Shown piece by piece: positions 35-21,689 of a stretch of 27,081 nucleotides of DNA. Under the pieces are notes generated by a model. That model searched no databases, was not told the DNA's origin, and saw only the letters and a list, made by a program, of their open reading frames with translations. This stretch comes from a virus, in the IMG/VR virus record IMGVR_UViG_3300035670_001072, positions 1 to 27,081 of that record. The stretch is one strand, 5' to 3'. A program made the position numbers and the translations under genes. The first letter of the stretch is position 1. Each line of letters starts with the position of its first letter.

Positions 35-2140
35 CTAGATTCCACCGAAGATACTACCTGAGACACCCCAACCGAGGAGTGTTACTGGAGCTTCGGCATC
101 GTTTTGTGTAAAAGCAAACTGCATCATCTGTGCTTTGCGATGCATGTTATATCGAAATTCGTTTAACGCTGGCCCGGTCCAATACATTGTAGTTCCAAGC
201 GGATTACTCGGAGCCCAATTAAAAGCACCCCATGTGGATGCAACGCCGGGTACTACTTTGCTAACGGTACCAACTTCATCAGGGGCAAGGTCGTATAATG
301 CCCCAAATTGAAAATCATAAGTTTGTGCTCTACCTTCAGCGTATACTTTAGCAGTTTTATACAGCTTTTTAATCATAGGCTGACCAAACATATAAGGCCG
401 ACTTACAAGTCGCATATAAATCTTATTGGCTGCAGTAGTAGCACTCACCCCATTCCACACTGTTTTATAGTCAGTACCACTCTGATTCATCTTATAGTAT
501 TGACCTTCGGTTGTTGCAGACCCAAAGTAAATATCTAAACCCCCATCTGCGGTAGCTTCTGTTTGAAAAAAGCACCCAGCTTTAATCCCGGGCATATCTG
601 CATCTGGACCCGCTTCATAGGTTGTCCAACGAAATGCGGGGTACTGCTGATAGTCACCAACTAATACTACATCTGGCTCAGTTGAGTTGATGTCTTTATA
701 TAGAGTTAAATAAATTCGACGGTATTTGGTGTCATTAACGGCGCTAAGTTTAGACGCCTTGTCATTAGTAAAATCTGAATTTAAAATAAGAGACTGAATT
801 GTACTTGCGATAGGTCTAACATTTTGCCCATCGGTTGCATAAATGTTATCACGTCCTAAAAACACAAGCTCATCAAATACCTGACATTGGGCATTGTGTG
901 AAACGGCCCCTACCGTTTCGGAAATCTCTCGGTAAATGTAAACCACGTTATCTTCACTATTTCCAAGATCTGGAAGACCAACTTCTTCTAAGCGACCAAT
1001 AGAACGCTCTTTAAGAATAATTGGCACCCCTTTAATCTGCCCTGCCCCTACCATACCGTCAGCAGCACCAAACTTACCTTCGACAGAAAACTCATTTTGT
1101 ACAGGAAAGCTTTCTGCTAATGGGCCTTCTAAACCGATTTTAGAAAATCGACCACGGTTAATTCGCGAATGAAATAGTAGCAATCTATTTCTCGATACCG
1201 TAGGAAATCTTGCTTCTTGATAACCATCATACTCTTCTAATTGAGTATTATCCAAAGGCATTTGCTCAGCCTCAAGAGCATTATCTGGTACGTCTGATAC
1301 ATATGTCGTAACATTCCCAGCAATCTCTTTTTCTAAAAATAAAATATTGCCGTTTGTTACCGTTCTCCAAATGCGGGTATATATGGTAACGTGTTGCAAA
1401 TAAGGTAGACCATAATCAGGAAATGCTCGTAGTGCTAATGAAAGTTTTCGATTTGCGCTATCGGTTGACGTAGGTAACGAGACATTTGATGGACTGCTTT
1501 CGGCTAATAAACGATTATCAAAATTGGATCTAAAGATATAAGTATATGCGTATACGTATTGACCGACATTTAACGCATCACTTCCGGCGTATGCCACTGG
1601 CGTTGCAACTGGCGTATCCACTTCGTTACTTACATTTACAGGATACTTAATTCCTAGCGGTCGTGTGTATAAACCATTCTCTTCATAAACAAAGGGATCA
1701 TCGACCCCATTGGCAACATATAAGCTATTATTAATTTGTGCAAATGCAGGTCGTCTAGTTGGTGAAATATTTAATACCACATTTGATTCGTCTGTAAACG
1801 GTGCAAAGACACCACCAGAAATTTTACCAAGTCGTCCTACACCACCGCCGCCTGAAATATTATTTGTCGCGTATAGTAAAATCTCAACCGTTGGCGTTGC
1901 TTGAACGGTAGTTCTTTTACGATACTCAAGTCCCTGTCTAATAGAAAAACCACCAATTACGTTTGCATCACTAAATTGATTTAAATAACCATCGCGTTTC
2001 GTATACCCGCCTGTAACCCCAAGGTTAACATTAACTGCCGTGCGCACGTACCCGGGCGAGAGTAGATTAATTGGGGAAGACGTATCAAGACCCTTAGCGT
2101 CTTGGTATTCTAATTCTTCAGTGTAATTCCTAGTTGACAT
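35..2140 (-). CDS. Probable podoviral tail nozzle / tail hub protein
   Basis: A 701-residue protein, the last complete gene of the leftward structural operon. It starts in a TAATG overlap with the adaptor stop. The sequence is beta-rich, with no signal peptide or membrane segment and few cysteines. The N-terminus (SPINLLSPGYVRTAVNVNL, residues about 22-40) and phrases such as TDGQNVRPIAS resemble large beta-propeller tail proteins that follow the adaptor in podoviruses (nozzle, T7 gp12-like or P22 gp10-like role). In that role it would extend the adaptor ring to close the short tail. Its size, position directly after the adaptor and composition support this; no catalytic motif is visible. It could instead be another tail hub protein. 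Family assignment is by gene order plus general resemblance, so the exact function is moderate confidence. Confidence 0.6.
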   Translation of the reverse strand: MSTRNYTEELEYQDAKGLDTSSPINLLSPGYVRTAVNVNLGVTGGYTKRDGYLNQFSDANVIGGFSIRQGLEYRKRTTVQATPTVEILLYATNNISGGGGVGRLGKISGGVFAPFTDESNVVLNISPTRRPAFAQINNSLYVANGVDDPFVYEENGLYTRPLGIKYPVNVSNEVDTPVATPVAYAGSDALNVGQYVYAYTYIFRSNFDNRLLAESSPSNVSLPTSTDSANRKLSLALRAFPDYGLPYLQHVTIYTRIWRTVTNGNILFLEKEIAGNVTTYVSDVPDNALEAEQMPLDNTQLEEYDGYQEARFPTVSRNRLLLFHSRINRGRFSKIGLEGPLAESFPVQNEFSVEGKFGAADGMVGAGQIKGVPIILKERSIGRLEEVGLPDLGNSEDNVVYIYREISETVGAVSHNAQCQVFDELVFLGRDNIYATDGQNVRPIASTIQSLILNSDFTNDKASKLSAVNDTKYRRIYLTLYKDINSTEPDVVLVGDYQQYPAFRWTTYEAGPDADMPGIKAGCFFQTEATADGGLDIYFGSATTEGQYYKMNQSGTDYKTVWNGVSATTAANKIYMRLVSRPYMFGQPMIKKLYKTAKVYAEGRAQTYDFQFGALYDLAPDEVGTVSKVVPGVASTWGAFNWAPSNPLGTTMYWTGPALNEFRYNMHRKAQMMQFAFTQNDAEAPVTLLGWGVSGSIFGGI

Positions 2141-3186
2141 TATACAATATTCCAGCTAGTACCGTTTGATACTATCGTAATGGATTCATAATTGATTACC
2201 ATCACGTAGTTTGCGTTTGAGTCAATTAACTGCCCGCTACTTGGAACAATAGTAATATTGTTCGCTGCAGCGTTGCCCGTTTCATCTTTAATAATATATT
2301 TCTTTCCAGAACCGGCAACCGAGGCAAGGGGTAGGTTGATGGTTACAGCGCCGGTATTGGTATTGCAACCAAGATAATAATCCGTGGCTGTGACTTCTAC
2401 CGTGCCAGTTAAATCCATGCGGGCATTGAAAGTCGTGGTGCTGCTGCTAGTCCCGCCAGAGATTGGGAACGAAGTCGGATACTGAGAGACCTCATAAATT
2501 TCAAACATGCTCTTAATTCGTGGATCTTCAGATCCGCCGATATTCAGCATATCAGCTTGTATGTCTTGTCTAATTAACAGCATAGCTTCCTGCTTTTTGG
2601 AAGCAGCGCGGTCATCGTTTTCTCGATCTAATGCCTGTGCCTTAACGTACTCCATAAACGCTTCTTGGTAGCGAAGGGGTATTTCAGGACTTGTCGAGTC
2701 AAATTCAACATCATTGTTAATAGGGGCTTTTAAAACCGGGGTAATCTTGCCGTCAATTTTTAACGTAGCGATCTTGGTCTTAGGTGGCCAAATCTCAATT
2801 TTGTTGTCGCCTGCAATTGCCCAGTACAGAGGCGGCTCATTTGCATCCCCATCATTAGCATCACTGTCTAATCTGCGTATTGCATTTAAATCTGTTTTTC
2901 TTAAGTAAATATTGTCGGTTTCAGAGCGAATACTTTCAATGTCGGTTGCTGCCATAAAATACCCAATAGTTGCAGCAGATAGATCGTACTGTTTGGTATT
3001 AAGAGCAGTAATCAAAGTCAAGTTGGTCTTTTTAAGAAATGACCAGTCATGCATTTTGTAGTATCGCATTTCGGCCATAACAATCAATTGTCGGACATAA
3101 TTTTTAAATTCTGTAGAATCATTGCCAACGTATGCAACGACATGATCTACAATTTGTCCGTATGTAAATCCACTATAATTAGGCAT
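2140..3186 (-). CDS. Head-tail adaptor (SU10/gp6-like) with extra C-terminal beta domain
   Basis: A 348-residue protein. The helical N-terminal part (about 1-225) has the look of gp6/SU10-type adaptors. It opens with a QIVDHVVAYVGND helix, then EMRYYKMHDWSFLKK, a beta section with YWAIAGDNKIEIWPP, and a final helix pair (RYQEAFMEYVKAQALDREND). Such proteins form a 12-mer under the portal and receive the nozzle. A Ser/Thr linker (about 243-255) then leads to an added domain at about 262-348 (KKYIIKDETGNAAANNITI, ending in TSWNIV). The same domain ends the 1102-residue fibre encoded at 12606-15914. It overlaps the upstream gene by 8 nt and the nozzle-like gene by 1 nt. The adaptor role is well supported by fold-like features and position; the function of the C-terminal domain is unknown. 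Confidence 0.75.
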   Translation of the reverse strand: MPNYSGFTYGQIVDHVVAYVGNDSTEFKNYVRQLIVMAEMRYYKMHDWSFLKKTNLTLITALNTKQYDLSAATIGYFMAATDIESIRSETDNIYLRKTDLNAIRRLDSDANDGDANEPPLYWAIAGDNKIEIWPPKTKIATLKIDGKITPVLKAPINNDVEFDSTSPEIPLRYQEAFMEYVKAQALDRENDDRAASKKQEAMLLIRQDIQADMLNIGGSEDPRIKSMFEIYEVSQYPTSFPISGGTSSSTTTFNARMDLTGTVEVTATDYYLGCNTNTGAVTINLPLASVAGSGKKYIIKDETGNAAANNITIVPSSGQLIDSNANYVMVINYESITIVSNGTSWNIV

Positions 3187-3637
3187 CCGCTAACCTCTTT
3201 GCAATTTCAATTTTACCGAAGAACCCTGCACGGTCGTAGTCGGATTCTCCAAGCCCTTTGCAATTAAAAACTTTGCGAACCTTGTCAAGCGTTGCTATCT
3301 TTTTTTCTACGAGTAGCAGTGCAATTGAGCGCCAACCCATAACAGATAACTTTGTATAGTTCATATTAAATATATCATATTCTGGGATAAAGTCAAGACA
3401 AATCGCAGTTACAAACGTATCAAATTCACCCCGTTCTAAAGCGTCTAAATATTTGGCATGTCCAGCGTGTATAATGTTTCTGTCTGATTTTTGAACATTT
3501 ACCTGTGCGCGCTTGGGGTTTTTAAAGTATAACCCACCGAACTTATACCCGTTTTCGCGAGTATCTGGTCTATCGGTTTTAACAAATAGTCGGGTATCTA
3601 GTCGTCGTAGCTTACTTTGAAAATCTGTTAATAACAT
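3179..3637 (-). CDS. Unknown late-operon protein between capsid and adaptor
   Basis: A 152-residue soluble protein I do not recognise. Visible features are a basic N-terminal half (SKLRRLDTRLFVKTD, then a YKFGGLYFKNPKRAQV stretch), an acidic segment with EFDTFVTAICLDFIPEYDIF, and a C-terminal GLGESDYDRAGFFGKIEIAK. It lies between major capsid protein and adaptor, where head-completion or scaffold-release proteins often sit, so a virion-assembly role is possible. The reading frame is open 11 codons further upstream to a TTG at 3670. I chose the ATG at 3637 because neither start has a clear Shine-Dalgarno site and ATG is the usual choice. Translation may rely on coupling. A strong hairpin separates it from the capsid gene, so it is probably expressed at a lower level than capsid. 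Confidence 0.6.
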   Translation of the reverse strand: MLLTDFQSKLRRLDTRLFVKTDRPDTRENGYKFGGLYFKNPKRAQVNVQKSDRNIIHAGHAKYLDALERGEFDTFVTAICLDFIPEYDIFNMNYTKLSVMGWRSIALLLVEKKIATLDKVRKVFNCKGLGESDYDRAGFFGKIEIAKRLADA

Positions 3638-3679
3638 AGTCGGTTGATTTAATGGTATTAGTGTAAACAATTTAAAGTC

Positions 3680-3703
3680 GGGGGTAGGCCGAAACCCACC
3701 CCC
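3680..3703 (-). terminator. Hairpin after the major capsid gene
   Basis: Read on the minus strand, GGGGGTGGG (with one G-U pair) matches CCTACCCCC, giving a 9-bp stem with a 6-base loop just 8 nt past the capsid stop. The following bases are only mildly U-rich, so this is more likely a partial terminator or an mRNA 3'-end stabiliser than a full stop. Such hairpins after capsid genes are common ways to give capsid more transcript than downstream genes. Confidence 0.5.
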
Positions 3704-3711
3704 TTCCCTAA

Positions 3712-4704
3712 TTAGAGCAACGAAGTAGCCCTGATTCGGATAACTCGCTTGGAGTTAGCATCTAAGTACTTCACAGCAAAGCCGTGAATCTTATAACCAA
3801 CTGTAGCAAATTGATCCAGAGGATCAGCAGTACCTGCGGAACCCTGTCTCTTGACAAACATCTTCATTGCATCGCCGTTAAGCTCTACAACTCCGAATGC
3901 TTCTTCGCCGATGACGAAAGATGAGCAAACATCTTTTCCAGCATCGCCTTGTCCTACTTCCGTAGGCATTTTGTCAGAAACGAGGAATCGCATTCCGTAC
4001 ATTCTTCCGATTTCTCCGTTAAGAAGAGGCTTGTTATCCACATTTTTGTGAATATCTAACCAGCTTCCACCAGTACTATCTGTCAACAGATCATACTCGG
4101 ATCGTGGGTGAAGAACGCAGACATAATCACCAGACTCATGTGGTCCAATGAAAGCAGCTTTTTGGCTGATCATTGCTTCCACTAACTCTTTGTGACTTAG
4201 TACAGCAGCTGGGGGAGTTAATCCACCAACTTGCTGCACTGCAGCGCTCATTCGAAGTTCTTGTACAATAAGCTCTTCGATTGTTTTAGATGCTGCGATA
4301 CCAAAGCGCTCTGATAAATTTTCCAACACAGGATCGATTGCTACGTCTGATAACATATCAGCAACGCGAGCAAACTGTCCGTATTGTTTAATATCAGCAG
4401 TTACGCTTGAGGTTTGGAACGCAGTTGCATCTGGGATTTGGCCTTCTGATAATTCGCTACCATAGCTAGTAATAGATGCAGAAGCTGCATTGATTACGTT
4501 ACCAGTTCCAATTGATGCATATCTTAGCCATTTAACCTGTTTACCATTTCCTTTTGGAAGTCTTTGTTTCTTTCCAAGAGGCATAAGGACTAGACGAGGT
4601 TCCAATGTGCTAAGGAGTTTTTTCTCATAATACAGGTGCAGATAATTTGCGTTATCTGATACCTGTGTCGATACCGTTGAGGTATTCGGGTATGAAATAG
4701 GCAT
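3712..4704 (-). CDS. Major capsid protein, N4-gp56 type
   Basis: A 330-residue protein with the hallmarks of the N4-gp56 major capsid family. It has an N-terminal YEKKLLSTLEPRLVLMPLG segment, the basic KKQRLPKGNGKQVKWLRYAS stretch, a SSVTADIKQYGQFARVADML segment, ECs such as VCVLHPRSEYDLL, and a late GMRFLVSDKMP strand. Members adopt the HK97 fold and build the icosahedral shell. No protease lies nearby, so maturation by cleavage is not indicated. The start follows AGGAG at 6 nt, and this Shine-Dalgarno overlaps the scaffold TAG stop, which couples scaffold and capsid translation. A hairpin follows the gene. Confidence is high from sequence and from the scaffold-capsid order. Confidence 0.88.
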   Translation of the reverse strand: MPISYPNTSTVSTQVSDNANYLHLYYEKKLLSTLEPRLVLMPLGKKQRLPKGNGKQVKWLRYASIGTGNVINAASASITSYGSELSEGQIPDATAFQTSSVTADIKQYGQFARVADMLSDVAIDPVLENLSERFGIAASKTIEELIVQELRMSAAVQQVGGLTPPAAVLSHKELVEAMISQKAAFIGPHESGDYVCVLHPRSEYDLLTDSTGGSWLDIHKNVDNKPLLNGEIGRMYGMRFLVSDKMPTEVGQGDAGKDVCSSFVIGEEAFGVVELNGDAMKMFVKRQGSAGTADPLDQFATVGYKIHGFAVKYLDANSKRVIRIRATSLL

Positions 4705-4713
4705 TTGTTACTC

Positions 4714-5529
4714 CTAATCGTCAGCTCGGCCTAAAGCTTTCCTCATTTCGTCTAAAGATAGACTTTGAAATGGGACTGCTCTATCGCCTTTCGATACAGC
4801 AGATTCAGACTGAGCCCGTTGTTTTTCAGATCGCACAGAAAGACCATCCTTCTGTACGCGCTCAACGGCCTGCTTTGCGTAGTAATCTACGTCTGCTCCA
4901 CGAGACATCAAGTCTAAAGCTCTTAACACTTTAGCAGAGTTAAGATACTCTGGCTTTACAATGTCTTGCAATTCAGAAGCAAGCTGTTGCATAAGTGGTT
5001 CTCGACGGGAGTAGTCTGGATTTTCCTTTTTCTGTTTCCAGTAATATTCAGAGCCTTCGGCTTGAATTTGCTGAATTGTTTGTTGCTTAAGTTTGGTATT
5101 CACCGATTGATTTAAGCCTTTAAGCGCTTGCTTAATAGCTTCTTTCGGATCTTCCTCAAACTTTCGCTCAAAGACAGAAAGTGGGTCCACTTCTTCTTCC
5201 ATCTCAACTACTTTTGGAGGTCGCTGTGTTGGCATCTGCGATTGAGCAATTCGTTCTCGCTCAAGCGATCGATACTGTTCCTCTAACGACTCCCTCTCTT
5301 TTCGAGTAGAACCCAATTCAGAAGCGAGCCTTCCGCGTTCTTTTTCAAGCTCACGGTAAGCATGGATAATCTCCAAAGGAGACTTTCCAACGAACTTCTC
5401 TGGAATTGCGTTTGCCTCTACCACCGCTTCAGGTTGACCTTGAGTAGAGATCTCAGGGGCCTGTGGCTGTTCTACAGCCTGACTTTCTTGCGAGGTCGCT
5501 TGTGGCTGCGCGATTTTCTCGTCTATCAT
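4714..5529 (-). CDS. Capsid scaffold / assembly protein
   Basis: A 271-residue, highly charged, Gln- and Glu-rich protein with no tryptophan-rich core, immediately before the capsid gene. Residues 42-62 carry the motif IPEKFVGKSPLEIIHAYREL, typical of podoviral scaffold proteins (PEKF-x-GKS followed by a helix). A coiled coil of about 40 residues follows (53-95), then a disordered proline/acidic linker and a long helix region (about 120-215), and the C-terminus is short and acidic. Scaffolds of this kind guide coat-protein assembly and leave the procapsid. The start is clear, with AGGAGG upstream at 5-6 nt, the strongest Shine-Dalgarno in the operon, which suits a product needed in large amounts. 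Its lack of a protease domain argues against a scaffold-protease fusion. Confidence 0.78.
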   Translation of the reverse strand: MIDEKIAQPQATSQESQAVEQPQAPEISTQGQPEAVVEANAIPEKFVGKSPLEIIHAYRELEKERGRLASELGSTRKERESLEEQYRSLERERIAQSQMPTQRPPKVVEMEEEVDPLSVFERKFEEDPKEAIKQALKGLNQSVNTKLKQQTIQQIQAEGSEYYWKQKKENPDYSRREPLMQQLASELQDIVKPEYLNSAKVLRALDLMSRGADVDYYAKQAVERVQKDGLSVRSEKQRAQSESAVSKGDRAVPFQSLSLDEMRKALGRADD

Positions 5530-5551
5530 GTTATCCTCCTACAGTTTAGCC

Positions 5552-5887
5552 CTATTCAGGGGACTGGTTTTTTTGTTCTTCCAAAGCTCTGCCTTCGGCG
5601 ATCTTATAATCGACAAAGGTCAGAACATTTTGGTAAGCTTTTACGGCTTCTTGGAGGCGCCGAAACTTTTCAAGATCTTGCTCATAAGCAAGTTTCTCTT
5701 TTAAATCAATGCAAGTACTCTTTAATAAATTCTCAAGTATTGCCCAACCCGGAGCCACTTTTAACGACTTTAGCAGTAAACCTTCTTCGATAATTCGATT
5801 TACTTCTTCGTTTTCGTATTCATCCTTACCAGACAATTCTCCAGTAAGTGGGTCCCAGACTTTTATTTGTTCGTTTTCGTAGAGCAT
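5552..5887 (-). CDS. Small helical late protein between portal and scaffold
   Basis: A 111-residue acidic protein that I cannot assign. It begins with an extended segment containing WDPLTGELSG and then appears almost wholly alpha-helical, with likely coiled coils at about 25-55 and 62-105. It lies between portal and scaffold and starts only 1 nt after the portal stop, with an AGGA site partly inside the portal end. Its position fits a head-assembly or portal-associated helper, but no motif proves this. No signal peptide or membrane segment is present. Confidence 0.6.
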   Translation of the reverse strand: MLYENEQIKVWDPLTGELSGKDEYENEEVNRIIEEGLLLKSLKVAPGWAILENLLKSTCIDLKEKLAYEQDLEKFRRLQEAVKAYQNVLTFVDYKIAEGRALEEQKNQSPE

Positions 5888-5888
5888 A

Positions 5889-7763
5889 TTATCCTAATCC
5901 TAAGCCTGCAAGAGCATCAAGGGTTGGTTGCACACCTAAATCAGGTTGCCCTGCGTTTGGTTGCGGTGCTGCCATACCTTGCTGCTGATTGACGGCTTGC
6001 TGTGCTGCCAATTGTTGCATTTGCATTTGTTGTCGTTCTTCAGGACTATTAACAAATCGCTTGATTTGGCGACCTAGTAAAGGTCTCAATAATGCCTCTA
6101 GGATTACTTCACTTTTAATCGTGCCGGGCTGACTGCTTTCAACGGCCTGTAAAATCTGAGACACGGTTTGGATTTTTTGAAACTGCCCCTCTGGGCCCCC
6201 GGATTCCAATGTCGTCTCAACAAGGAAATCGAAGGCCCTGAAAAATGCGTCTGGCGGTAACTCAACAAATGGATTTGGTGTATTAGGATCTAGTACACGA
6301 ACCCACTGGTTATTAGTTACAAACTGTCTATTAGTAAGCAGCATTAATTTAGCTACTTGTTTAAAATACATTTCTGCTAGCATTCTAGCTTTTAAGCTAA
6401 TTCGTGAACTAGCAAAGCTTTGGATAAAGTTAACGCCGGTTGCGGAGCGACCAAACTGCTTACCGAGGTTACTTGCTACAGGTGCTGCATTTACCATCGC
6501 GGTAGCGTTTTGGATGTCGTTCTGGATGAACGCCATTTCCTCGCGCGAACCAATTGACGGGTCCATGGGTGGTAAAGGCTTAATCGCATTGATATCATTA
6601 GTCCAGATAACCCCATTCGGTCGTGAGAACAAACTCTTAGTATTGATACCTGCCGCACGATCAGCGATCCACATGGGATTAACAGACAAGTTAATATTGT
6701 CAAGCCGTGCGTTGCGAAGGGTGTTAGCTTCTTTAATGAGCGACCTAACGGCCATAAGTTCAGGGATTCCATAAAACTCCGATTCGCGCATGTAATTTGG
6801 ACATGCGACAAAAGGCTTAAACTTATAGTCGTAGAAATTTTGCTCACAACGAAGTACGACGTCACCGTTTGCAATAACGATTATATACTCTTCAAAGTTA
6901 CCATCTTGATTAAGGTCAAATAAGCCCCAGTATTCCCATACTTCAATAGCCCCTTCATCTTTACGTTGGTAATCGTTATCGTTAAGACGCTCAAACTCAT
7001 CTTTGTATGAGTCGGAGTAGTAAGGGGTAGACCATGCGTCAAACCCTTTAACCGAGACGCTCATTTCTAGCTCATCGAGGTTTTTATAAAGGGGGTTGTT
7101 TTGCAGGCTAACCAAAGTCTTGTATGTACGATGTACGCACCCGCGCATGCTGGCCACGTCGCCGGGACGTTTGATTGACCAGTCTGGAAAAAAGTCGTAA
7201 ATAGGAATTAGCTCTAGGTCTGGCCCGTCAAATAACACTTCTACTTTAGGCATTTTTACCGACGTCTCAACACCTGACTGCGGGTCAACTTGAGTCATTC
7301 GTCGAACAGTTTCTAGTTCTTTATAGCGATAAGGGACCTTTGCAAAGGCTGTCCCATCAAGAAGCATTGCTTTGATAAAAGCAGCTGTCTTAGACTGAAA
7401 TCCCATTTCTTCAAACTGGTGAATATGGAAATCAGTCATAGCATCTTCGAAAACCGCGTCTTCTGCCCCCTGCCCCTTAAACTGTATAACGCTACCGCCT
7501 CTAAAAAAGATATCGACTAACTGCGGAGTCTGGGTTTCAATAATAGTAAAACCAAACGGCAATTTCAAATTAGCGCGTTGCACAAGTGAGCGTGTTGATG
7601 GAGACCAGTTTTCATACATTTCACGCGACTGGCGTGCGAGTTCCAAATGCGGATCGCGATAATCATCGCTATTTTTCATAAACGCTCGAACAACACGAAT
7701 AGCGTGCAATTCTTTTGTTCGTTCCTGCGGCTCGTTTATATCTCTATCAAAAGGATTTTGCAT
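5889..7763 (-). CDS. Portal protein
   Basis: A 624-residue protein directly after TerL, the usual portal position. Sequence features match large podoviral portals. They include an N-terminal helical domain, the LPFGFTIIETQTPQLVDIFF segment at about 87-106, a wing or stem region with IEVWEYWG and EYIIVIANGDVVLR, then FKPFVACPNYMRESEFYGIPE and the helical RSLIKEANTLRNARLDN stretch (about 330-350). The last 50 residues are Gln-rich (QQMQMQQLAAQQAVNQQQG), a low-complexity tail common in portals and often inside the head. Twelve copies would form the ring at the unique vertex and contact terminase and adaptor. The start has AGGG at 6 nt, and the gene lies 3 nt from the TerL stop. Assignment is strong on gene order and sequence. 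Confidence 0.82.
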   Translation of the reverse strand: MQNPFDRDINEPQERTKELHAIRVVRAFMKNSDDYRDPHLELARQSREMYENWSPSTRSLVQRANLKLPFGFTIIETQTPQLVDIFFRGGSVIQFKGQGAEDAVFEDAMTDFHIHQFEEMGFQSKTAAFIKAMLLDGTAFAKVPYRYKELETVRRMTQVDPQSGVETSVKMPKVEVLFDGPDLELIPIYDFFPDWSIKRPGDVASMRGCVHRTYKTLVSLQNNPLYKNLDELEMSVSVKGFDAWSTPYYSDSYKDEFERLNDNDYQRKDEGAIEVWEYWGLFDLNQDGNFEEYIIVIANGDVVLRCEQNFYDYKFKPFVACPNYMRESEFYGIPELMAVRSLIKEANTLRNARLDNINLSVNPMWIADRAAGINTKSLFSRPNGVIWTNDINAIKPLPPMDPSIGSREEMAFIQNDIQNATAMVNAAPVASNLGKQFGRSATGVNFIQSFASSRISLKARMLAEMYFKQVAKLMLLTNRQFVTNNQWVRVLDPNTPNPFVELPPDAFFRAFDFLVETTLESGGPEGQFQKIQTVSQILQAVESSQPGTIKSEVILEALLRPLLGRQIKRFVNSPEERQQMQMQQLAAQQAVNQQQGMAAPQPNAGQPDLGVQPTLDALAGLGLG

Positions 7764-7766
7764 GTG

Positions 7767-9479
7767 TTACCCTATTATAAACCCAGTTTCGGGATCGATC
7801 ATATACTCAGCAGGTTCATATGCCCCGTGATCATCGTTGTCCCAAGTTCTAGCACTACTCATCTCTTCTGCTAAAGCTGCGGCCATTACAAGATCATCGT
7901 GTGCATCAGCGGTTGCCTGACGTTTAACAGTGCCTCCGCTTTTGCCGGAAATCTGTACAAAGGTTGACATCTCTGATACAAGCTCTTTATCCAAGATTAT
8001 CAGTTTACCTTCTTTAGCAGCTGACTTGAACTTTTCGGTAATCATTATCTTGGTCTGATTCGTTGTAACAAAGCCGACTTTCTTAGTCGGTTTATTTGTC
8101 ATTTCGTCTATCGTCGATCTTTTGTAGAGATTGCGATAGCCCATCTCTTTTAAAACGTGTAGAACTACATGCCCATGATTATTGGCTTCAACGCATGCCC
8201 AAGCATTGTTATAAAATTTCCCAAGCTTGTACAGTTCTCTAGCAAAATCAGCAGGAGCAAGGTCACCCCAAATGCGAGCAACCAACTTGTTAGTCTTGTT
8301 GTCTTTAACATAGGCTGCTCCATTGTCTTGTCCTACGCCGCCACTAGGGTCGGCTCCCATTGAGTACGTGTGTGATGGATCTGGCTCTTCCCAGATAGCG
8401 ATAGCCCCTTTAGGATCATCGTGTATTTCCATCTTGTTACCATCTGCAATTAGATGACCTACAAAAATTGGATCTCGAGTATTGCGGTCTTGCATCTTTA
8501 AGATGCTACTTGAGAATACGTTTGCATCCCCGGTTAAGAAGCAGTCCTGATCATTTGTAGGATACTCATTCTCAAAGAGTTCCTCATCTCCTCCGCACTT
8601 TGCTTCTATACACCAGCGACGCCAGAAAATATGCGCTTCGTTAATCTTACCTTTGTAGCTAGCTAGTAGCTCCCGCTCTCGGTTAGTAAGTACTGCATCT
8701 TCCGGCATGTCCCAATCTTCCGGGTTTTCCGGATAGTGTTTATACCATGGAACAAAGCAGCCTTTGTAAGGAGCAACAGCTCCCTTAGCTCTCCAGCTTT
8801 GCCAGAGGCGGTAAAATTCTCCTGAACGCCCAGCAGCGGTTGACTCTAAAGTAATCTCGCCGTTATCTGGTACTCCGTTTAGCGATCCTACGAGCCGGTC
8901 TTTTTCGATACGGGCCGCTTCCGAAACGTGCATGAAATGAATCGTTTTACCTCGGAAATCATGAAGTACAAGAATAGAAGACTCCAAGGGACGACCAAGA
9001 CCATCGCTAGCAAAACTAAGCGCCGTATTAGAGTCGCTTTTTTCCACTGGCTTGTAAAGATGCCCCCAATCACGGATAAACCAATTATAACAGAATTTTG
9101 TGATATCGTTAAAAATCGTTTTAACAACTTGCAATTTATGGCACAGAATGCCAGTCCTCATGTTGCTTTCCCAGAGTGCGTAATCTAGGGCTCTGATACA
9201 GTTTAGCGTTGTAAAGCCAACCTGTCTGCACTTTAGGATAATGTTTCTATGAGCCTTCGTTTTTAAATACTGCTCTTGTGGCTTATTAGGCACAAAAAAC
9301 TTTGCTTGCTTAGTAAGCTTGTCTTGCACGCGGTACAGGTTTCTAACCCGCTCTTCGTGTCCTAGCTCTAACATAGCATCCCGAAAGGCCAGCATGCCCC
9401 TCTCTGGCCCTTCGAGTTCTGCTATCTGTAAAACCTTTTCGTAGGCTTCTTGAAACTTTTTTGTAAAATGTTTTGCCAT
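7767..9479 (-). CDS. terL: Terminase large subunit
   Basis: The 570-residue packaging motor. The ATPase domain has a variant Walker A, CRQVGFTT (84-91), in the Gln-Val-Gly-Phe-Thr-Thr form seen in many TerL proteins. A Walker B-like HFMHVSEAA follows (181-189), and then a coupling motif LESTAAG (211-217). The nuclease domain has the expected acidic residues: D377 in GADPSGG, E431 in CVEANNHG and D528/D529 in AHDDLVMAAA. It would translocate DNA into the prohead through the portal and cut the concatemer. It begins in a TAATG overlap with the C1q-like gene and has only a weak Shine-Dalgarno, so coupling is likely. Unusually, the small subunit is not adjacent: the TerS candidate is about 15 kb away in another operon. 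Confidence is high. Confidence 0.92.
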   Translation of the reverse strand: MAKHFTKKFQEAYEKVLQIAELEGPERGMLAFRDAMLELGHEERVRNLYRVQDKLTKQAKFFVPNKPQEQYLKTKAHRNIILKCRQVGFTTLNCIRALDYALWESNMRTGILCHKLQVVKTIFNDITKFCYNWFIRDWGHLYKPVEKSDSNTALSFASDGLGRPLESSILVLHDFRGKTIHFMHVSEAARIEKDRLVGSLNGVPDNGEITLESTAAGRSGEFYRLWQSWRAKGAVAPYKGCFVPWYKHYPENPEDWDMPEDAVLTNRERELLASYKGKINEAHIFWRRWCIEAKCGGDEELFENEYPTNDQDCFLTGDANVFSSSILKMQDRNTRDPIFVGHLIADGNKMEIHDDPKGAIAIWEEPDPSHTYSMGADPSGGVGQDNGAAYVKDNKTNKLVARIWGDLAPADFARELYKLGKFYNNAWACVEANNHGHVVLHVLKEMGYRNLYKRSTIDEMTNKPTKKVGFVTTNQTKIMITEKFKSAAKEGKLIILDKELVSEMSTFVQISGKSGGTVKRQATADAHDDLVMAAALAEEMSSARTWDNDDHGAYEPAEYMIDPETGFIIG

Positions 9480-10093
9480 TAAAATCCAACACGGTCGATG
9501 TCCAAATACGTGTGTGCCTCGTTGCCGTAAACAGTTGCACTTCCAGTGCCAGTGCTTCTAGAAAACTTTAGCTCAACATAATCGTTAAACTTTAAGTCAA
9601 CAATTGTGCTGCCTGCTAAACTTAAACCCATCCCACCAGTAAGATTGTGTGCTTGCTGCAAAATTGCAGTGTTGGCCCCATTTACTGACAAGATTAATGC
9701 AGGGTCTGCGTTGTTCCATAGCGAGCCTGCTGGTTGCACCGTAATCTTTGCAGAGATACGGTATTTACCCGGCAGTGTAACCTTAAACCGTGTACTAGTT
9801 CCAGTACCATAAACTAACTGCTCTGACTGAAACGTAGGAGACGAAAGCCCTAGCACGTCAATTGCACTTGGTGCTACCAGCTGATTTGCTGGAAGATAAA
9901 ATCTTCCGGTTGCTGGAGTTACAGCAGCTTCTTTGCTAACGCCTTGCTCGTCGACTTGGTATAGTATGCCGTCTTTAATAAACAGCTCTACTGTGCCAGC
10001 CTGTGGAGCGGTGTTAGCTTGCTTTCTAGTGCGCAGCCGTAAGCTATCTAGAGCGTATACGCTGCGACCGTCTTGTAGTTTAACGAATGACAT
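9479..10093 (-). CDS. C1q/TNF-like jelly-roll virion protein
   Basis: A 204-residue protein. The N-terminal part holds a short fibre-type module (LQDGRSVYALDSLRLRTRKQ, then GTVELFIKDGILYQVDE). The C-terminal 130 residues read as a C1q-like jelly roll: FYLPANQL, then FKVTLPGKYRISAKITVQ, then ALILSVNGAN, and DYVELKFSRSTGTGSATVYG followed by YLDIDRVGF. Such domains form trimers at fibre tips or on capsid or tail surfaces and often bind host glycans or other fibres. It starts in a TAATG overlap with the upstream fibre gene and ends in one with TerL, so it belongs to the fibre block. It could be a fibre tip, a fibre chaperone-like partner or a capsid decoration protein; I favour a receptor-binding or fibre accessory role. 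Confidence 0.6.
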   Translation of the reverse strand: MSFVKLQDGRSVYALDSLRLRTRKQANTAPQAGTVELFIKDGILYQVDEQGVSKEAAVTPATGRFYLPANQLVAPSAIDVLGLSSPTFQSEQLVYGTGTSTRFKVTLPGKYRISAKITVQPAGSLWNNADPALILSVNGANTAILQQAHNLTGGMGLSLAGSTIVDLKFNDYVELKFSRSTGTGSATVYGNEAHTYLDIDRVGF

Positions 10094-12588
10094 TATACGT
10101 TACGACCCAAAGTTGTTTGGAATTCTTGAACAATTGCGTATAATCTTCCAACTTGCGCAAGAGTTAATCCTTTTCCAATGCTTGCAAATGCATAATTTCG
10201 AGTACTATAGTCAACTACACTTGCACCTGATTTTCTAGCTCCAATAGTAATTGTCTCGGGAAATGTAAGCGATTCGGAGTTTACTGCAGCAGAATTTGCT
10301 TGAATTGCCGTATTTCTAAAAAATACCTGATTTGTTGATGTTGTTCTACTTACTGCAAATAGACCTTGAGTATTAGTTACTAAATTATTTACAGATGTTT
10401 GAGTTGCACTCGCTGCAAAACGTGTAGGGTTACTTGCAGCAGCAGTCCGAATTGAAAAATGCGATCCTTTGGTTCCACCAGCAGCAATTTCTGCTCCAAT
10501 ATCGGTAGCCGTTACAGAAGAATTAGTTCTGGAATATATCGATAAATGTTGATTATTTTGAAACAGTAAATTACCAGCAAGATTAGTATCTCCGTAACCA
10601 TCTATACCATCACCCGTAATACCATTTGCATCATGTGTTACAGTTCCACTCCAAGTAATTTGATACTCTGCTGGATTTTTTAAATTATAACTATGAGATG
10701 CAGAGGAACCACCAACAAAAGGATAAATTGCATACATTGCATCCCACAAACCTTGGGATTTTAAGGATGAAATGAGAGTTGCAATTGCACTGCGTTGAGT
10801 TGAATCAGAAATTGAGGCTGTAGTAATAAATGAAACATAATCTACATCTTCCGGATTAATAATAAACCAAGCAATGGATTGATCTGCGGCAACATTGCTA
10901 TCATGCTCCAGTTTAAATGAGCCAAGAGCTTTTGTTGTAACCGATACGTAATCTGTACTTGTTTGATTTGTCGCTAAAATAATCGAGTTTGGTCCGCAAG
11001 CATTGGTAGTAACTGTTACCTCGGCAGTACCATTTGCAATTGTAGCTAATCCAGCAGCAGCATTATTTCCAGTTGCCATTTGCAGACTTCGACCAAGAGA
11101 TGCAATACTTAAGTTTCCGGAAGAAACTTCAACACTTTGTGCGGGATTAAATTTGGCATTTCCAGTGTAATCAATTTCAAAAACTTCTGTATCATTTTGA
11201 TTTTGTGCAGACATCAGGGCTGGTAATATTGTTAAACTACTTAAGTTATACGCGGCATCCACTGCAGAATCTACCGTTAATTTATGCCCATTATTACCAT
11301 ACGTGGGTGTGTTTGAATCATTCAGAACGGTAGGGCTTTCTGCAATAATTTTTCGAGTAATGTCTAATTGTCCAGACTTGGTCAACTGTATTTTATCTCC
11401 ACGCCCCATGCCTAAGCCACGAAATGTCCGTAAAACTACGGTACTTCCGGAAAAAAAGGAATTATTAAAAATATCAACACTAGAATCAGTTAAAATAGTT
11501 CCATTAGTACCTACCGCTTCTTCATACCCATGCACGGAAACTATCCCGCCATCTAAAAAATACCCGGGATTTGCGACATTGCCAACATGCACTTTTTTTC
11601 GAAACGCCGCCGTAAAAAATCTTTGTAATCCTAGAACACCTAAACCGTTATGTGCAAGTAGTCCAAAATGTCCTGCTACATCATTAAACCAACCTTGGGA
11701 TGACTCAGCTGAACCAAAGGATGTTGGGCGATGTAAGTACATTTGACTTCGGTCTACACTTAAAAATGTAACTGGAGTTTGTGTATCCCAGCCAAATTTT
11801 AAACCGGCAGTTGATGTATTACTGATTGTAAAATTAGGCACACCAATCAAGCGAACTTCCGCAAGTGAACTTTGACGTAAATCAAAACGAATTCTTTCTC
11901 TATTTAATTTACTTCCAGAAAAAAGATTATCGGCTTCTCGTGCGGAAAAAGAGATTTGCCCCTCTGCAGGACTATATATTCCTAAAGTAGGATCGTTGGC
12001 AAATTGTATTGGAGGACTTGCAAGAGTCCCTGCTGGAATTGTAAGAAGCCCAGATTTAGATACGTTTAAGGCATTTGTACTCGAATTTACAAAACTTGTG
12101 TGTGATGGCTCGATATAAATTTCACGCGAAGACCCGTCCCCCATAACACGAGAAACTCGTACTTGTGTTGATGTGATTTTTTGTAATATAACGGCCCGCT
12201 CACTAAGACCATTTAAATAAATGACATCCCCAATTTGCAAAATATTTGTAATATCTGTATCAGTATTAATTAAAGTTTTATCAACGGGGTTAAGAGTCGG
12301 ATGATAAACAGGATTGGCGTATGGAACATACATAACTCCAGTTGCGATATCGGGCAATTCCTTTGCATTAAGCGCTGCTTTGGTATTGGCGGAATTAAAT
12401 ACTAATCTGTTAACACCCATGTTAAGATCTTGATTAACAGCCGTAGGCGCGGTCAAGTTATCTAGCGTTAAGCTAGCACCTGCAGGGATAGCTGCAATCT
12501 CTGATGCAACATGATCATGTACCGCATCACTTGAGATCGGATTCTTCTGACCGTCTGTTACTGTTTGGGATAGTGGTTTGTATGACAT
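10093..12588 (-). CDS. Tail fibre protein with C-terminal lectin-like domain
   Basis: An 831-residue protein. The N-terminus (SQTVTDGQKNPISSDAVHDH, residues 7-26) is a typical virion-attachment opening of phage fibres. The middle is repetitive, Ser/Asn/Thr-rich and beta-structured, as in trimeric shafts, with segments such as GLLTIPAGTLASPPIQFAND. The last 200 residues or so (after FVGGSSASHSYNLKNP) look like a concanavalin/LamG-type jelly roll. This region holds ITWSGTVTHDANGITGDGID, GYGDTNLAGN and SIYSRTNSSV, and fits a sugar-binding tip. AGGAGAG lies 7 nt before the ATG. It sits between the 1102-residue fibre and the C1q-like gene. Local base composition is more AT-rich than in flanking genes, which fits module exchange of receptor-binding parts. 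The target receptor is unknown. Confidence 0.7.
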   Translation of the reverse strand: MSYKPLSQTVTDGQKNPISSDAVHDHVASEIAAIPAGASLTLDNLTAPTAVNQDLNMGVNRLVFNSANTKAALNAKELPDIATGVMYVPYANPVYHPTLNPVDKTLINTDTDITNILQIGDVIYLNGLSERAVILQKITSTQVRVSRVMGDGSSREIYIEPSHTSFVNSSTNALNVSKSGLLTIPAGTLASPPIQFANDPTLGIYSPAEGQISFSAREADNLFSGSKLNRERIRFDLRQSSLAEVRLIGVPNFTISNTSTAGLKFGWDTQTPVTFLSVDRSQMYLHRPTSFGSAESSQGWFNDVAGHFGLLAHNGLGVLGLQRFFTAAFRKKVHVGNVANPGYFLDGGIVSVHGYEEAVGTNGTILTDSSVDIFNNSFFSGSTVVLRTFRGLGMGRGDKIQLTKSGQLDITRKIIAESPTVLNDSNTPTYGNNGHKLTVDSAVDAAYNLSSLTILPALMSAQNQNDTEVFEIDYTGNAKFNPAQSVEVSSGNLSIASLGRSLQMATGNNAAAGLATIANGTAEVTVTTNACGPNSIILATNQTSTDYVSVTTKALGSFKLEHDSNVAADQSIAWFIINPEDVDYVSFITTASISDSTQRSAIATLISSLKSQGLWDAMYAIYPFVGGSSASHSYNLKNPAEYQITWSGTVTHDANGITGDGIDGYGDTNLAGNLLFQNNQHLSIYSRTNSSVTATDIGAEIAAGGTKGSHFSIRTAAASNPTRFAASATQTSVNNLVTNTQGLFAVSRTTSTNQVFFRNTAIQANSAAVNSESLTFPETITIGARKSGASVVDYSTRNYAFASIGKGLTLAQVGRLYAIVQEFQTTLGRNV

Positions 12589-12605
12589 TTACTTACTCTC
12601 CTAAA

Positions 12606-15600
12606 TTAGATAATGAACCAGTTTGTGCCATCTGACACAAGGGTTAAAGCTTCATAGTCTACTGCCATGACGTAGTTTGCTGCGCCATCGATAGTACCTG
12701 AAACTGTGATATTGTTAGTTGAGGCGTCTCCGCTCTCGTCTTTGATTACAAGTTTTTTACCAGCAGCTGCCGTTGGCAAGTTGACTGTCTTTGCAGCTCC
12801 TGAGCAATCGACTCCAACATAGAAGTCGTCGTCGGCTACAGTGATAACATCTGCTGTTCCCGCTTGCGCGTGAGCAGAGTTTACGATAAGTCCGCATGAA
12901 AGATCTAAATTGTTTGATGCACTAATTTTAGCAGCTTCGGCTCCTGCGACTTTGAAAATCAACTCGCCGTCAGCGCCAGTACCGTGCTTAAGTCCACCTT
13001 GAATTGTAACGTCGCCACCGTCGTGATTTCCTGTAAGACCATCACCCCCGCGAAGAAGGATGTCGTGCTGAGCAGAGCCAACGCCGTCACGTGCGCGCAG
13101 CGTTTGTGTAATGACTGCGTGGTTAGAAACTAAAACATTACCAGCAACTTCAAGTTTTTCGCCGGGAGTTGCAGTTCCGATACCAACGTCACCATCATCA
13201 GTAACACGCATTCTTTCAACGTGCGCATTTAAAGAAGATCCAGAAGATACAGCGGGAGGTGCGGTTGCAATGATAACGTCACCGCCAGCACCGGTTCCCG
13301 TTCCTTGCGCTCCTGCAATCGTAAGCGTTCCAACTGACATATCAGTATCAGTACCGCTTGACCGCATGGTCATAATTTTTACAGCGTTTGCCGCAGTTTG
13401 AGATGCACCACCACGGCCAATTAGCATGGTGTTTATTTGAGCTGTTGAAGATCCGACTGCAAATTCATTACTACCAGCTTTTGCTTCTCGTCCTATTGCT
13501 ATACAATTAATAGCATTCCCAACATTACCTGTATTTGCGCCAATCCATACAACATTTGCGGCATCGCCGTTAACTCCGGCATTGTGTCCAATAGTAACAG
13601 AACTTGAACCTCTATTTAATGCACCAGATCCAATAACTACTAAATTAGACCCTTGATTTACTAAAGTGTTGGCTGCATTTGTACCAATTAATACGTTATT
13701 TGTAGAAGTTGTAATAACATTTGCCGCGCCATCTCCAATAATTGTATTTGCAGTGCCAGTTAAGCTTGCTGGTTTACTTCTTCCAAGAATTACAGTATTA
13801 GCCGGATATGCGGCACTTGTCGAACCCGTTCCAACTGTCCGCCATTCGGGTGCTGAAGCAGTTGAATACAAAACTTTGTCGTCAGAATACGCTGGTAGCG
13901 CGTCTTGTTTTGCATTAAATGTTGACCAATCAGTAGATGATAAATAACCGCTTTGAGCAGAGCCAGCCTGTGCAACAGCAATAGTTACACCAGAACCTAA
14001 AACAGCACTAGTTCCACCGCTAATTGTCAAAACACTGGAAGTAGTTTCAGAAAGATTGCCCTTTGTCAATGAAAGGCTTGTACCACTACCAATAACTGCC
14101 CCAACGCCCCCGGTAACGGTAATATCACTTGACGTTAAATCGCCAAAGCTTAACGCAGCCTGCTTGTTGTTAAAGGTATTCCAGTCTGTTGAGGACAAAT
14201 AACCGTCTTGAGCAGCGCCGGACTGCGAGATAGAAATATTTGGTGTTGCGCCACCACTGGATGCTACTGGTGCGCTTGCAGTTACGGCACTAACGCCAGT
14301 CGTAAGATTAACCCACGAAAGATTTCCACTACCATCATTTTGAATTACACTGTTTGCTGCTCCCTGTGCCGCCGGTAACTTGACTGTATATGGCGTCGTG
14401 GTTGCAGCTGCCTGTAACTTAATTGCACCAGAGGTTGAGCCGTCTAGTGATAACCCGTCAAATGCTGACTCACCACTTGCATCCCGTAAAACCAGCGTAG
14501 ATGCTGTTGACGCTGCTGTTGCACTATTTAATGATTCAAGTGTAGTTGTGCTTACTGCAGATGCTACTAATTTTTTATTTGCGTCTGAGACAAGTGCTCT
14601 CGATGCTGTTAAAGAAGAAAGAATTGCATCAGTTGAATTTAATTGTGATGCCCCACTAGCTGCGGTATTAACAGTAACCAAAACGGCATTTGCAGGAGCT
14701 AAGCTGGGTAAACCCACACAACCTAGTAATTGAACTTGACTTGCAACTACAGCACTGCTGTTAAAAGTTGCTCCAGTAAAATCGCACTGATTAAAAACTA
14801 CAACGCCTAGTAAATTAGCGTCAATAGAGACTGAGCCGGTAAATGTACAATTTTGAAATACGACAAAATTCTGTATAGCATTTTGCAACACAACCGAGCC
14901 AAAAACCATATCTCTAAAATAATGTCGGCCAGTTGTTGCGTTAATTGTTAAGCTGTCAGCTAAGAGGTTATATAAATGGATTCGTTCAGCAGTTCCTGAA
15001 ATTGTTATACTTCGACCTGTATCTAGCCGTGCAAAGTCCACACCACTAGCAGTACTTGGGCCGACAACCTGTAAAGTATTTTGACTTGAAAACGTTAAAT
15101 TTTCATTATATACGCCATTAGATACCTGTATTCGTTTCCTAGTACCTACAATTGCATTAATGCTGCTTTGAATGGATGCTGGTGCATTAACATAAAAAGT
15201 ATCTGTTGCTTCATCAATCTTTAAATCTAATTGGCTCTGTAATGCGCTTGTAACGCCTTTTACGTAGGAAAGCTCGGTAAGACTGGGGTAGGTAGCGGTC
15301 GATAGTGAAACGACGTTTTTAGAGGCGTCTGAAGCTAAAATTTCACTAGCTGTAAGAGAAGCTAGGTTAATAGCAGACTTGACATACAATGTCTGGGGTC
15401 TGGAAGCAGCAGCAGCACCGATGTTATAGCTGGTGTCGTCTGCAAATAAAAGCGATTGGTTGATACTGGTAGGCAGTAAGTTAGCGAGGTCACGGTCAGC
15501 TTTGTTAGCTAGGCCGATGAGAACGTCGGTAAAGGTTAATAAGTCAACACCTAAATTAATGGGTGCTACGTTAGGGCTAACTAATTGAAAAATCTTATCT

Positions 15601-15914
15601 GCGTTGGCGAACCCATCAGATACTGGGACCAGCATGTTTGGAAGAACTTCGTTTGAGTTATTAGCGTCTAGTGACCGGGTAAGAGTGTAATTACTACCAG
15701 AAACTGAATATACGTAAATTCCATTTTCAGCAGCATTTGTTTGGCCGCGTAGCAAAACGCGGTCTTTATCGGCTAATGCAATTGTATCGATTGTTAGTGG
15801 CGTTGGGGAGTGGGATCCAGTTAACGCTATGTTTTCAGGATTCCCAGTTGCTACGCGTACTGCGTCTTTGTATGTGGCTGACGCTCCGCCTGAAAAAGTC
15901 AATAAAAAGGCCAT
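12606..15914 (-). CDS. Large mosaic tail fibre protein, first gene of late operon
   Basis: A 1102-residue fibre made of recognisable modules. The N-terminal unit (about 10-130) has the pattern IDTIALADKDRVLLRGQTNA then ENGIYVYSVSG, found in many phage fibres. A beta-helix-like part follows (about 245-410, with VFQNCTFTGSVSIDANL and VVVFNQCDFTGATF). Two copies of a short unit come next, GYLSSTDWNTFNNKQ and GYLSSTDWSTFNAKQ (in about 555-670). Then come YadA-head-like repeats (about 690-850, e.g. VVIGSGALNRGSSSVTIGHN) and a GDVGIGTATPGEKLEVAGN segment. The final 80 residues (DESGDASTNNITV ... NYVMAVDYEALTLVSDGTNW) are homologous to the adaptor C-terminus. No chaperone peptidase domain is seen. 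The start has AAGGAGA 8 nt upstream and follows the operon promoter. It probably forms a trimeric side or tail fibre. Confidence 0.75.
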   Translation of the reverse strand: MAFLLTFSGGASATYKDAVRVATGNPENIALTGSHSPTPLTIDTIALADKDRVLLRGQTNAAENGIYVYSVSGSNYTLTRSLDANNSNEVLPNMLVPVSDGFANADKIFQLVSPNVAPINLGVDLLTFTDVLIGLANKADRDLANLLPTSINQSLLFADDTSYNIGAAAASRPQTLYVKSAINLASLTASEILASDASKNVVSLSTATYPSLTELSYVKGVTSALQSQLDLKIDEATDTFYVNAPASIQSSINAIVGTRKRIQVSNGVYNENLTFSSQNTLQVVGPSTASGVDFARLDTGRSITISGTAERIHLYNLLADSLTINATTGRHYFRDMVFGSVVLQNAIQNFVVFQNCTFTGSVSIDANLLGVVVFNQCDFTGATFNSSAVVASQVQLLGCVGLPSLAPANAVLVTVNTAASGASQLNSTDAILSSLTASRALVSDANKKLVASAVSTTTLESLNSATAASTASTLVLRDASGESAFDGLSLDGSTSGAIKLQAAATTTPYTVKLPAAQGAANSVIQNDGSGNLSWVNLTTGVSAVTASAPVASSGGATPNISISQSGAAQDGYLSSTDWNTFNNKQAALSFGDLTSSDITVTGGVGAVIGSGTSLSLTKGNLSETTSSVLTISGGTSAVLGSGVTIAVAQAGSAQSGYLSSTDWSTFNAKQDALPAYSDDKVLYSTASAPEWRTVGTGSTSAAYPANTVILGRSKPASLTGTANTIIGDGAANVITTSTNNVLIGTNAANTLVNQGSNLVVIGSGALNRGSSSVTIGHNAGVNGDAANVVWIGANTGNVGNAINCIAIGREAKAGSNEFAVGSSTAQINTMLIGRGGASQTAANAVKIMTMRSSGTDTDMSVGTLTIAGAQGTGTGAGGDVIIATAPPAVSSGSSLNAHVERMRVTDDGDVGIGTATPGEKLEVAGNVLVSNHAVITQTLRARDGVGSAQHDILLRGGDGLTGNHDGGDVTIQGGLKHGTGADGELIFKVAGAEAAKISASNNLDLSCGLIVNSAHAQAGTADVITVADDDFYVGVDCSGAAKTVNLPTAAAGKKLVIKDESGDASTNNITVSGTIDGAANYVMAVDYEALTLVSDGTNWFII

Positions 15915-17872: not shown

Positions 17873-18094
17873 ATGAGAGAATACAGGCTACAATACGGAA
17901 AGTTGAAAGAGGCAGTACTAGCAACACTATACGTTGAGAGCGGTTTTAAAGATGCGTACGTTGCTGAGGCTGTTTTTGAGACGACTGGCGAATACTTAAG
18001 CGAGCACGAAATATTGCTACTTGAGGCACAAAATGCAGACCTTATTCACGAGGCATGTTTAGAGCATGCAGAAAGCGAGAATATTTATGAGTGA
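17873..18094 (+). CDS. Small acidic helical protein
   Basis: A 73-residue acidic protein, unrecognised. It appears fully helical (KLKEAVLATLYVESGFKDAY, then EYLSEHEILLLEAQNADLIH) and has no cysteine cluster, only one Cys. The AAAGGA Shine-Dalgarno is at 6 nt. It overlaps the next gene by 8 nt. It is similar in style to small early phage proteins that bind host enzymes, but no function can be claimed. Confidence 0.6.
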   Translation: MREYRLQYGKLKEAVLATLYVESGFKDAYVAEAVFETTGEYLSEHEILLLEAQNADLIHEACLEHAESENIYE

Positions 18095-18269
18095 TGGTAT
18101 ACACTTAAAGTTCAAGACGGGCGAAGATCACGATTGGAAAAACTGCGACGACGAAGAATGCCAAGACTGTTGCACGCACGATGAGTTTGACCACTTCATC
18201 TGCTTGTATTGCGGCAAAGAGTTTGAGCCCGCAGACTTCTTTGATGAGGATTATGGGGAAGAACGATGA
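18087..18269 (+). CDS. Small acidic zinc-knuckle protein
   Basis: A 60-residue protein with Cys at 20, 25, 28, 29, 39 and 42 and His at 31. The C-terminal pair is ICLYCGKEFEP, a typical zinc-ribbon knuckle, and the first group is CDDEECQDCCTH. It is very acidic overall, so it is more likely a protein-binding factor than a DNA binder. I start at the ATG at 18087, which overlaps the upstream stop by 8 nt; an in-frame ATG at 18066 has no well-placed Shine-Dalgarno. It overlaps the next gene in an ATGA junction. Confidence 0.55.
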   Translation: MSDGIHLKFKTGEDHDWKNCDDEECQDCCTHDEFDHFICLYCGKEFEPADFFDEDYGEER

Positions 18270-18454
18270 AGACCTATACAATACTTTGGGACTATAATAT
18301 AACTGTTGCAATAAAAGCTAAGAGTAAAGAAGATGCCCTTAGAATTTTTCTTACTCAATGTGATTGGGTTAGTGAGGGGCATCAAGTCATTGGGTTAGAA
18401 GACGTCGTTGACAAAGGCATTAAATCTGATATAGTAAATAAAAAGGAGATATAA
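18266..18454 (+). CDS. Small unknown protein (62 residues)
   Basis: It starts in an ATGA overlap with the previous stop, which implies translational coupling. The predicted fold is beta-alpha-beta: TYTILWDYNITVAIKAKS (strands), KEDALRIFLTQ (helix), HQVIGLEDVV (strand). This pattern is frequent in small phage proteins with an edge-strand binding role, but I know no named family. The gene ends next to AAGGAG, the ribosome site of the next gene. Confidence 0.6.
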   Translation: MKTYTILWDYNITVAIKAKSKEDALRIFLTQCDWVSEGHQVIGLEDVVDKGIKSDIVNKKEI

Positions 18455-18455
18455 C

Positions 18456-19669: not shown

Positions 19670-19682
19670 ACGTACTGCTACA

Positions 19683-19716: not shown

Positions 19717-19728
19717 CACGAGGTTAAC

Positions 19729-20379: not shown

Positions 20380-20380
20380 C

Positions 20381-21687: not shown

Positions 21688-21689
21688 CG

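Follow-up and report, generated by a model that had tools for sequence, protein, structure and literature searches.

The stretch analysed here, hereafter the window, is the whole 27,081-base linear record IMGVR_UViG_3300035670_001072. It derives from an uncultured virus infecting bacteria, and its structural genes form one block on the - strand. Two of these genes, encoding a head-tail adaptor of 348 residues (2140..3186, - strand) and a large tail fibre of 1102 residues (12606..15914, - strand), end in the same C-terminal domain. An earlier note, made from the sequence alone, had placed both genes and quoted peptides from their ends, and strand, coordinates and peptides are all correct.

BLASTP aligns adaptor residues 269-348 with fibre residues 1030-1102 (77.8 bits, E 1e-19), with 40/80 identical and 60/80 similar positions. 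The last 95 residues of the two proteins give a local alignment score of 201; shuffling the fibre end 2,000 times gives at most 57. Chance or compositional similarity of the two ends is thus ruled out. A protein search across the record finds the module at exactly two places, the adaptor end (residues 254-348; 2143..2427, - strand) and, as the second match, the fibre end (residues 1015-1102; 12609..12872, - strand). Likewise, a domain profile matches exactly 2 of the 77 window open reading frames (ORFs) of at least 60 residues. BLASTP, shuffling and the record-wide search therefore bear out the common C-terminal domain, whose length of about 88-95 residues exceeds the 80-85 first proposed.

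Across the 80 aligned codons, identity at positions 1, 2 and 3 is 0.57, 0.72 and 0.36. Since third positions have diverged and the positions that define the amino acid are kept, the two copies separated long ago, with their protein sequence held by selection. A recent duplication of the 3' end is ruled out by the low third-position identity.

The adaptor carries a flexibly linked terminal domain

The identification of the 348-residue protein as a head-tail adaptor is well founded. Residues 8-201 match PF24175 (SU10_adaptor) with 42.3 bits, above the gathering cut-off of 27, and the best Foldseek match is the SU10 adaptor (7z47_A, E 4.6e-6). The gene context is also of the SU10 type, with portal, capsid, adaptor and tail protein.

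The protein consists of three parts: a body (residues 1-230; 2497..3186, - strand), a Gly/Ser/Thr-rich linker (residues 231-253, YEVSQYPTSFPISGGTSSSTTTF; 2428..2496, - strand) and the C-terminal domain. In the AlphaFold2 monomer model, residues 211-252 are disordered, with a predicted local distance difference test score (pLDDT) below 50, and residues 254-348 form a confident domain with pLDDT of about 77-97 by block. From residue 261 onward, the per-block mean pLDDT is 93-97, which rules out a disordered or unfolded adaptor end. The structure prediction proposed in the earlier note thus gives a confident fold for the terminal domain. It follows from the 50% sequence identity that the fibre copy should have the same fold.

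The terminal domain is an XD1-type beta-sandwich

The predicted domain aligns best with the XD1 domain of the CBA120 tailspike TSP4 (7rej_B, residues 78-175; VIA Z 13.6, 2.2 Å, 94 aligned residues), which PMC8825819 (Chao et al.) delimits as residues 80-178. Further alignments were obtained with the KP1-variant baseplate 9f4b (Z 12.6), T4 gp10 (residues 49-146, Z 11.1) and T4 gp9 (residues 67-163, Z 10.9), as well as with late domains of the tailspike Solidus_gp83 (24qj, residues 611-696, Z 11.4) and the Pa223 capsid spike (9ny6, residues 195-289, Z 9.9). CpaA (Z 8.8) and StcE (Z 7.2) also match, and the domains of XD1 fold in these two proteins are described as glycan-binding in the part of PMC8825819 consulted.

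Sequence profiles point the same way. The domain profile A2, built from 24 instances in the window and viral contigs, was compared with the PDB by hmmsearch and matches the gp34-type long tail fibre proximal subunit (residues 100-188, E 3e-4), T4 gp10 (residues 69-137, E 4e-3) and the TSP4 tailspike (7rej/7rfv/7rfo, residues 100-167, E 0.013). hhalign of A2 with four gp10 N-termini gives a probability of 95.8 and an E value of 6.7e-9 over 73 columns. The module is thus an XD1-type beta-sandwich of the T4 gp9/gp10 family. Because the single adaptor sequence scores 18.7 bits against PF07880, under the gathering cut-off of 25, we class the adaptor end as an XD1-type relative and not as a PF07880 member. 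The adaptor had been said to bear a fibre-type tip; it does bear a terminal module of the kind found on fibres, but since XD1-type domains are seen in gp9/gp10, gp34 and tailspikes, the module is not fibre-specific.

Close relatives of the adaptor lack the module

Relatives of the adaptor body were found in six viral contigs (L003-L008). The L003 adaptor is 100% identical to that of the window. The other five share 53-57% identity with the body from residue 3 or 4 to residue 230 and lack the module; they measure 247 residues (L004, L005, L006, L007) or 233 residues (L008, with an internal gap) and end ...RYDGIGSLLDIPGFRPWD, with a short tail of about 18 residues where the window adaptor has linker and module. 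Since all five are bare, we conclude that the window lineage appended the module. An adaptor with such an end had been called unusual, and within its own lineage it is, with 5/5 diverged relatives bare; our survey covered this lineage rather than the wider PF24175 membership. A profile rescan of viral contigs for the adaptor found no further adaptors, a search of the full adaptor against 50,697 cultured-phage records returned no match, and 47 stretches with a pattern in genomes of bacteria and archaea yielded no confirmed relative.

The large fibre could be compared in two of these contigs, L005 and L006; its counterpart is missing from the contig or cut in L003, L004, L007 and L008. The L005 fibre is homologous to that of the window (37% identity over window residues 667-923) and has a different end. 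In L006, the upstream fibre ends in the module and the adaptor is bare, so the fibre module does not require a module on the adaptor.

The module ends many virion proteins

A search for the domain in other virion proteins, as the earlier note had proposed, found it on fibres and neck proteins. The gathered loci, with the window's own gene copies excluded, contain 82 domain instances, and in 75 of them the module ends within 10 residues of the C-terminus. Besides fibres and neck proteins, the carriers include small proteins 112-200 residues long, and several contigs carry the module in two to four neighbouring genes. At L021:4294-6584, a 646-residue protein contains three module copies, and a further copy lies in the next gene, of 112 residues.

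The domain tree was built from 54 of the 66 instances that passed the filter, the others having been removed as near-copies; 14 of the 51 inner branches are starred, that is, reach the 95/80 mark. In this tree, the window's adaptor domain is sister to its fibre domain (support 88/95). This placement is consistent with the adaptor having captured a fibre end, after which the two sequences diverged for a long time.

A gp14-like neck protein gained the same module

The domain search also met a protein of 310-321 residues in L016, L018, L026 and L029. In the model of the L018 protein, the core aligns with the necks of phage 812 (Z 10.2), Pam3 (Z 9.7) and XM1 (Z 9.6) and with the T4 gp13-gp14 neck complex (Z 8.4); the linker is disordered, and the end matches the TSP4 XD1 domain (Z 14.1). 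In the Foldseek ranking, the second match is to a T4 portal-neck-tail complex chain. We infer from its length that the matched gp13-gp14 chain is gp14. On the strength of this model, we take the second core to be gp14-like, a neck protein that is not related to the SU10-type adaptor.

The first ~165 residues of this protein define a family, and viral contigs contain at least 596 relatives. The best 80 of these, ranked by similarity to L018, were fetched; because of this selection, the share of members with the module is not a frequency. Over all loci, 89 core-family ORFs were found. The module is absent from 76, nearly all of them bare cores of about 161-171 residues, and present in 13, in ten of which it follows a linker (L016, L018, L026, L029, L042, L043, L045, L046, L048 and L049). 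L030 encodes a single 1243-residue fusion of the neck core with a module-ending fibre. Tandem paralogues occur in L031 (4133-6246) and L032 (2312-4666), each with a bare core (171 and 169 residues) followed by a core fused to a module-ending fibre (527 and 608 residues). The module is mobile: many virion proteins end in it, and a gp14-like neck protein acquired it independently.

Another domain gene lies nearby in 13/13 module-bearing loci, compared with 1/54 of the bare loci whose downstream flank is 2.5 kb or longer. This comparison leaves aside the ambiguous L044 and L047 and also eighteen bare loci whose flanks are shorter, all of which lack another domain gene. Six of the 13 module-bearing loci (L042, L043, L045, L046, L048 and L049) came from the neck-core search and seven were found via the module search. 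In the core tree, the domain state changes twice, and the coupling amounts to one independent pair on starred branches and two on all branches; with so few pairs, we do not use the neck-fibre coupling in this family as proof.

In L045-L049, ORFs of 141 residues after the neck gene (for example, L045:7023-7448) encode small module-ending proteins. If the first start codon is used, these ORFs share 16 bases with the end of the module-bearing neck gene, an arrangement suggestive of translational coupling and, perhaps, a partnership.

A possible role at the neck

We propose a model for the appended domain, which we hold at roughly even confidence: the XD1 beta-sandwich on the SU10-type adaptor is an accessory surface-contact module displayed round the neck. 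In this model, the beta-sandwich has been appended to the C-terminus of an SU10-type ring protein via the flexible Gly/Ser/Thr linker. The SU10 adaptor is described as a dodecamer in the part of PMC9509320 consulted; if the window adaptor assembles likewise, about twelve tethered copies would surround the neck and might act as a weak, multivalent contact module. The likeliest class of ligand would be a host-surface or extracellular glycan of the same kind that the fibre end touches, given the fold similarity to CpaA and StcE. The module would aid adsorption or retention and would be neither the main receptor binder nor part of the DNA channel. Receptor binding by the module is plausible.

Several observations weigh against this model. 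The adaptor body is modelled poorly, with a predicted template modelling score (pTM) of 0.35, and the model leaves the exit point of the tail unplaced. The module-bearing adaptor is found in one lineage only, that of the window and the identical L003, and the sister support for the adaptor and fibre domains stays under the 95/80 mark. In cyanophage A-1(L), a neck fibre bearing a carbohydrate-binding module failed to bind the host, according to the portion of PMC10966104 consulted. The residues best conserved across the family (KD, NN-I-I, TI-G) are largely present in gp10 too; they therefore look fold-defining and do not indicate a binding pocket. Finally, the portion of PMC8825819 consulted calls XD1 in gp9, gp10 and TSP4 a probable spacer whose function is not fully understood.

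The last two points lead to the alternative that XD1 is a stable terminal cap or spacer for solvent-facing ends or trimeric register, with no ligand of its own. We regard this as rather unlikely, although it is also consistent with the presence of the module on many unrelated virion proteins, including those of 141-191 residues. A spacer should have something to space, yet the module is terminal in the great majority of instances, and bare adaptors and bare gp14-like cores manage without it. Neutral mosaicism, in which recombination gave the adaptor a fibre 3' end that is simply tolerated, would agree with the C-terminal swapping seen elsewhere in the phage lineage, as in P0005 (described below). 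It is improbable in our view, since the much higher identity at second than at third codon positions implies a protein sequence long held, an intact fold is predicted, and another neck protein made a parallel gain.

Hardly more probable is that the fibre tip and the adaptor domain bind each other and so hold folded-back fibres at the neck, the like-to-like contact that the earlier note had suggested. Such holding of long fibres has been proposed for the T4 whiskers. The window's adaptor domain has its nearest kin in the fibre domain and vice versa, and module-bearing gp14-like loci consistently have a second domain gene nearby. However, that association comes down to the one or two independent pairs above, in loci more than half of which were found via the domain search itself. 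The L006 phage, whose fibre carries the module and whose adaptor is bare, leaves like-to-like contact unsupported. Moreover, in SU10 it is the N-termini of the long fibres that attach to the adaptor, at its dock-domain loops, as described in the part of PMC9509320 consulted.

More broadly, head-tail connectors, usually seen as plain seals or gates, can receive surface modules common to fibres, and two unrelated neck proteins gained one separately. These gains suggest that neck fibres could evolve by simple steps, from a bare ring to a ring with a module to a ring fused to a fibre, and all these stages occur in metagenomic phages. A wider reading, which we offer tentatively and think doubtful as a whole, is that a single interchangeable XD1 module serves unrelated types of phage as a matched set. 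Fibre ends and small accessory proteins would bear it, and the neck ring (SU10-type adaptor, gp14-like stopper) would have gained it independently; the neck would then join the adsorption or fibre-retention apparatus, and neck fibres would arise by core-fibre fusion (L030-L032). The finding would gain weight if a single adhesion system, common to neck and fibre, lay behind the parallel gains. A neck-borne module also bears on the still unclear role of XD1 and offers testable constructs.

Neighbouring genes

The large fibre gene, whose residues 15-280 match phrog_11518 (tail fiber protein, E 3.2e-20), is followed in the structural block by P0004 (10093-12588, - strand) and P0005 (9479-10093, - strand). 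The block then continues with terminase, portal, proteins of 111 and 271 residues, major head protein, a 163-residue protein, adaptor and a nozzle-like protein; terminase, portal and major head protein were assigned by PHROGs. The portal shows low identity to cultured phages throughout, and the first listed match, in Microcystis phage MaAM05, has 26.5%.

The nozzle-like tail protein (701 residues; 35..2140, - strand) matches phrog_3287 (virion structural protein, E 1.1e-13) and is 65% identical to the product of the gene after the bare adaptor in L005; its name is our inference from its position beside an SU10-type adaptor. Its start shares one base with the adaptor stop (TAATG), whereas the gap between the adaptor and the next gene is 16-18 bases in L004 and L005.

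P0005 has a swapped C-terminus: its first 58 residues are 66% identical to a 106-residue protein at the same place in L005, and the remainder differs, with a weak resemblance to BclA_C (21.6 bits, below the cut-off of 38). L005 also encodes, within the variable region that separates the fibre gene from the terminase, a 367-residue protein (2307-3410) of near-identical repeats (GGVLLPDGRVFCVP..ARIYDPVTD). In the window, positions 17873-23793 hold a dense run of small + strand ORFs, with a GC skew opposite to that of the structural block.

Comparison with known systems

The XD1 domains of CBA120 TSP4 and T4 gp9 and gp10 (the PF07880 region) have the same fold as the adaptor end, with 88-94 aligned residues, Z scores of 10.9-13.6 and 18-24% identity. 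In those proteins, however, XD1 is internal to trimeric baseplate or tailspike proteins, whereas here it is C-terminal and present as one copy on a ring-forming neck adaptor. The Pa223 capsid spike and the Solidus_gp83 tailspike carry the fold late in the chain, but both are spike proteins and not neck rings; they are known here from the structure library, and a literature search found no structure paper on Pa223.

The body of the window adaptor is that of the SU10 adaptor gp11, as the Pfam and Foldseek matches indicate. The modelled SU10 chains, by contrast, comprise 222-228 residues, and no appended domain is mentioned in the part of PMC9509320 consulted. The gp14-like neck proteins resemble the window adaptor in joining a neck core, a linker and the same terminal domain; they differ in their unrelated core and, in the fully read loci L016 and L018, belong to a different type of phage and have fibre genes around them.

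The closest functional parallel is the neck passage structure (NPS) of lactococcal 936 phages, which displays an accessory C-terminal adhesive module round the head-tail connector. The part of PMC6669499 consulted describes one conserved NPS N-terminus with several alternative, interchangeable C-termini, and one NPS carbohydrate-binding module that weakly bound host cells. By the same account, the NPS is a separate collar of ~500-900 residues with BppA-type, beta-helix or esterase-type carbohydrate-binding modules, whereas the window has an XD1-type module on the adaptor itself. The adaptor shares with the NPS a terminal module on a neck protein and lacks the BppU-like N-terminal domain and the separate collar protein. 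Because the carrier is the adaptor itself (PF24175), it may work like an NPS but is not one.

Among the open PMC papers listed in the searches, no title or abstract opening names an adaptor or neck protein with an XD1-type domain. XD1 modules and neck decorations are already known; the domain addition described here is real and somewhat surprising, a variation on both.

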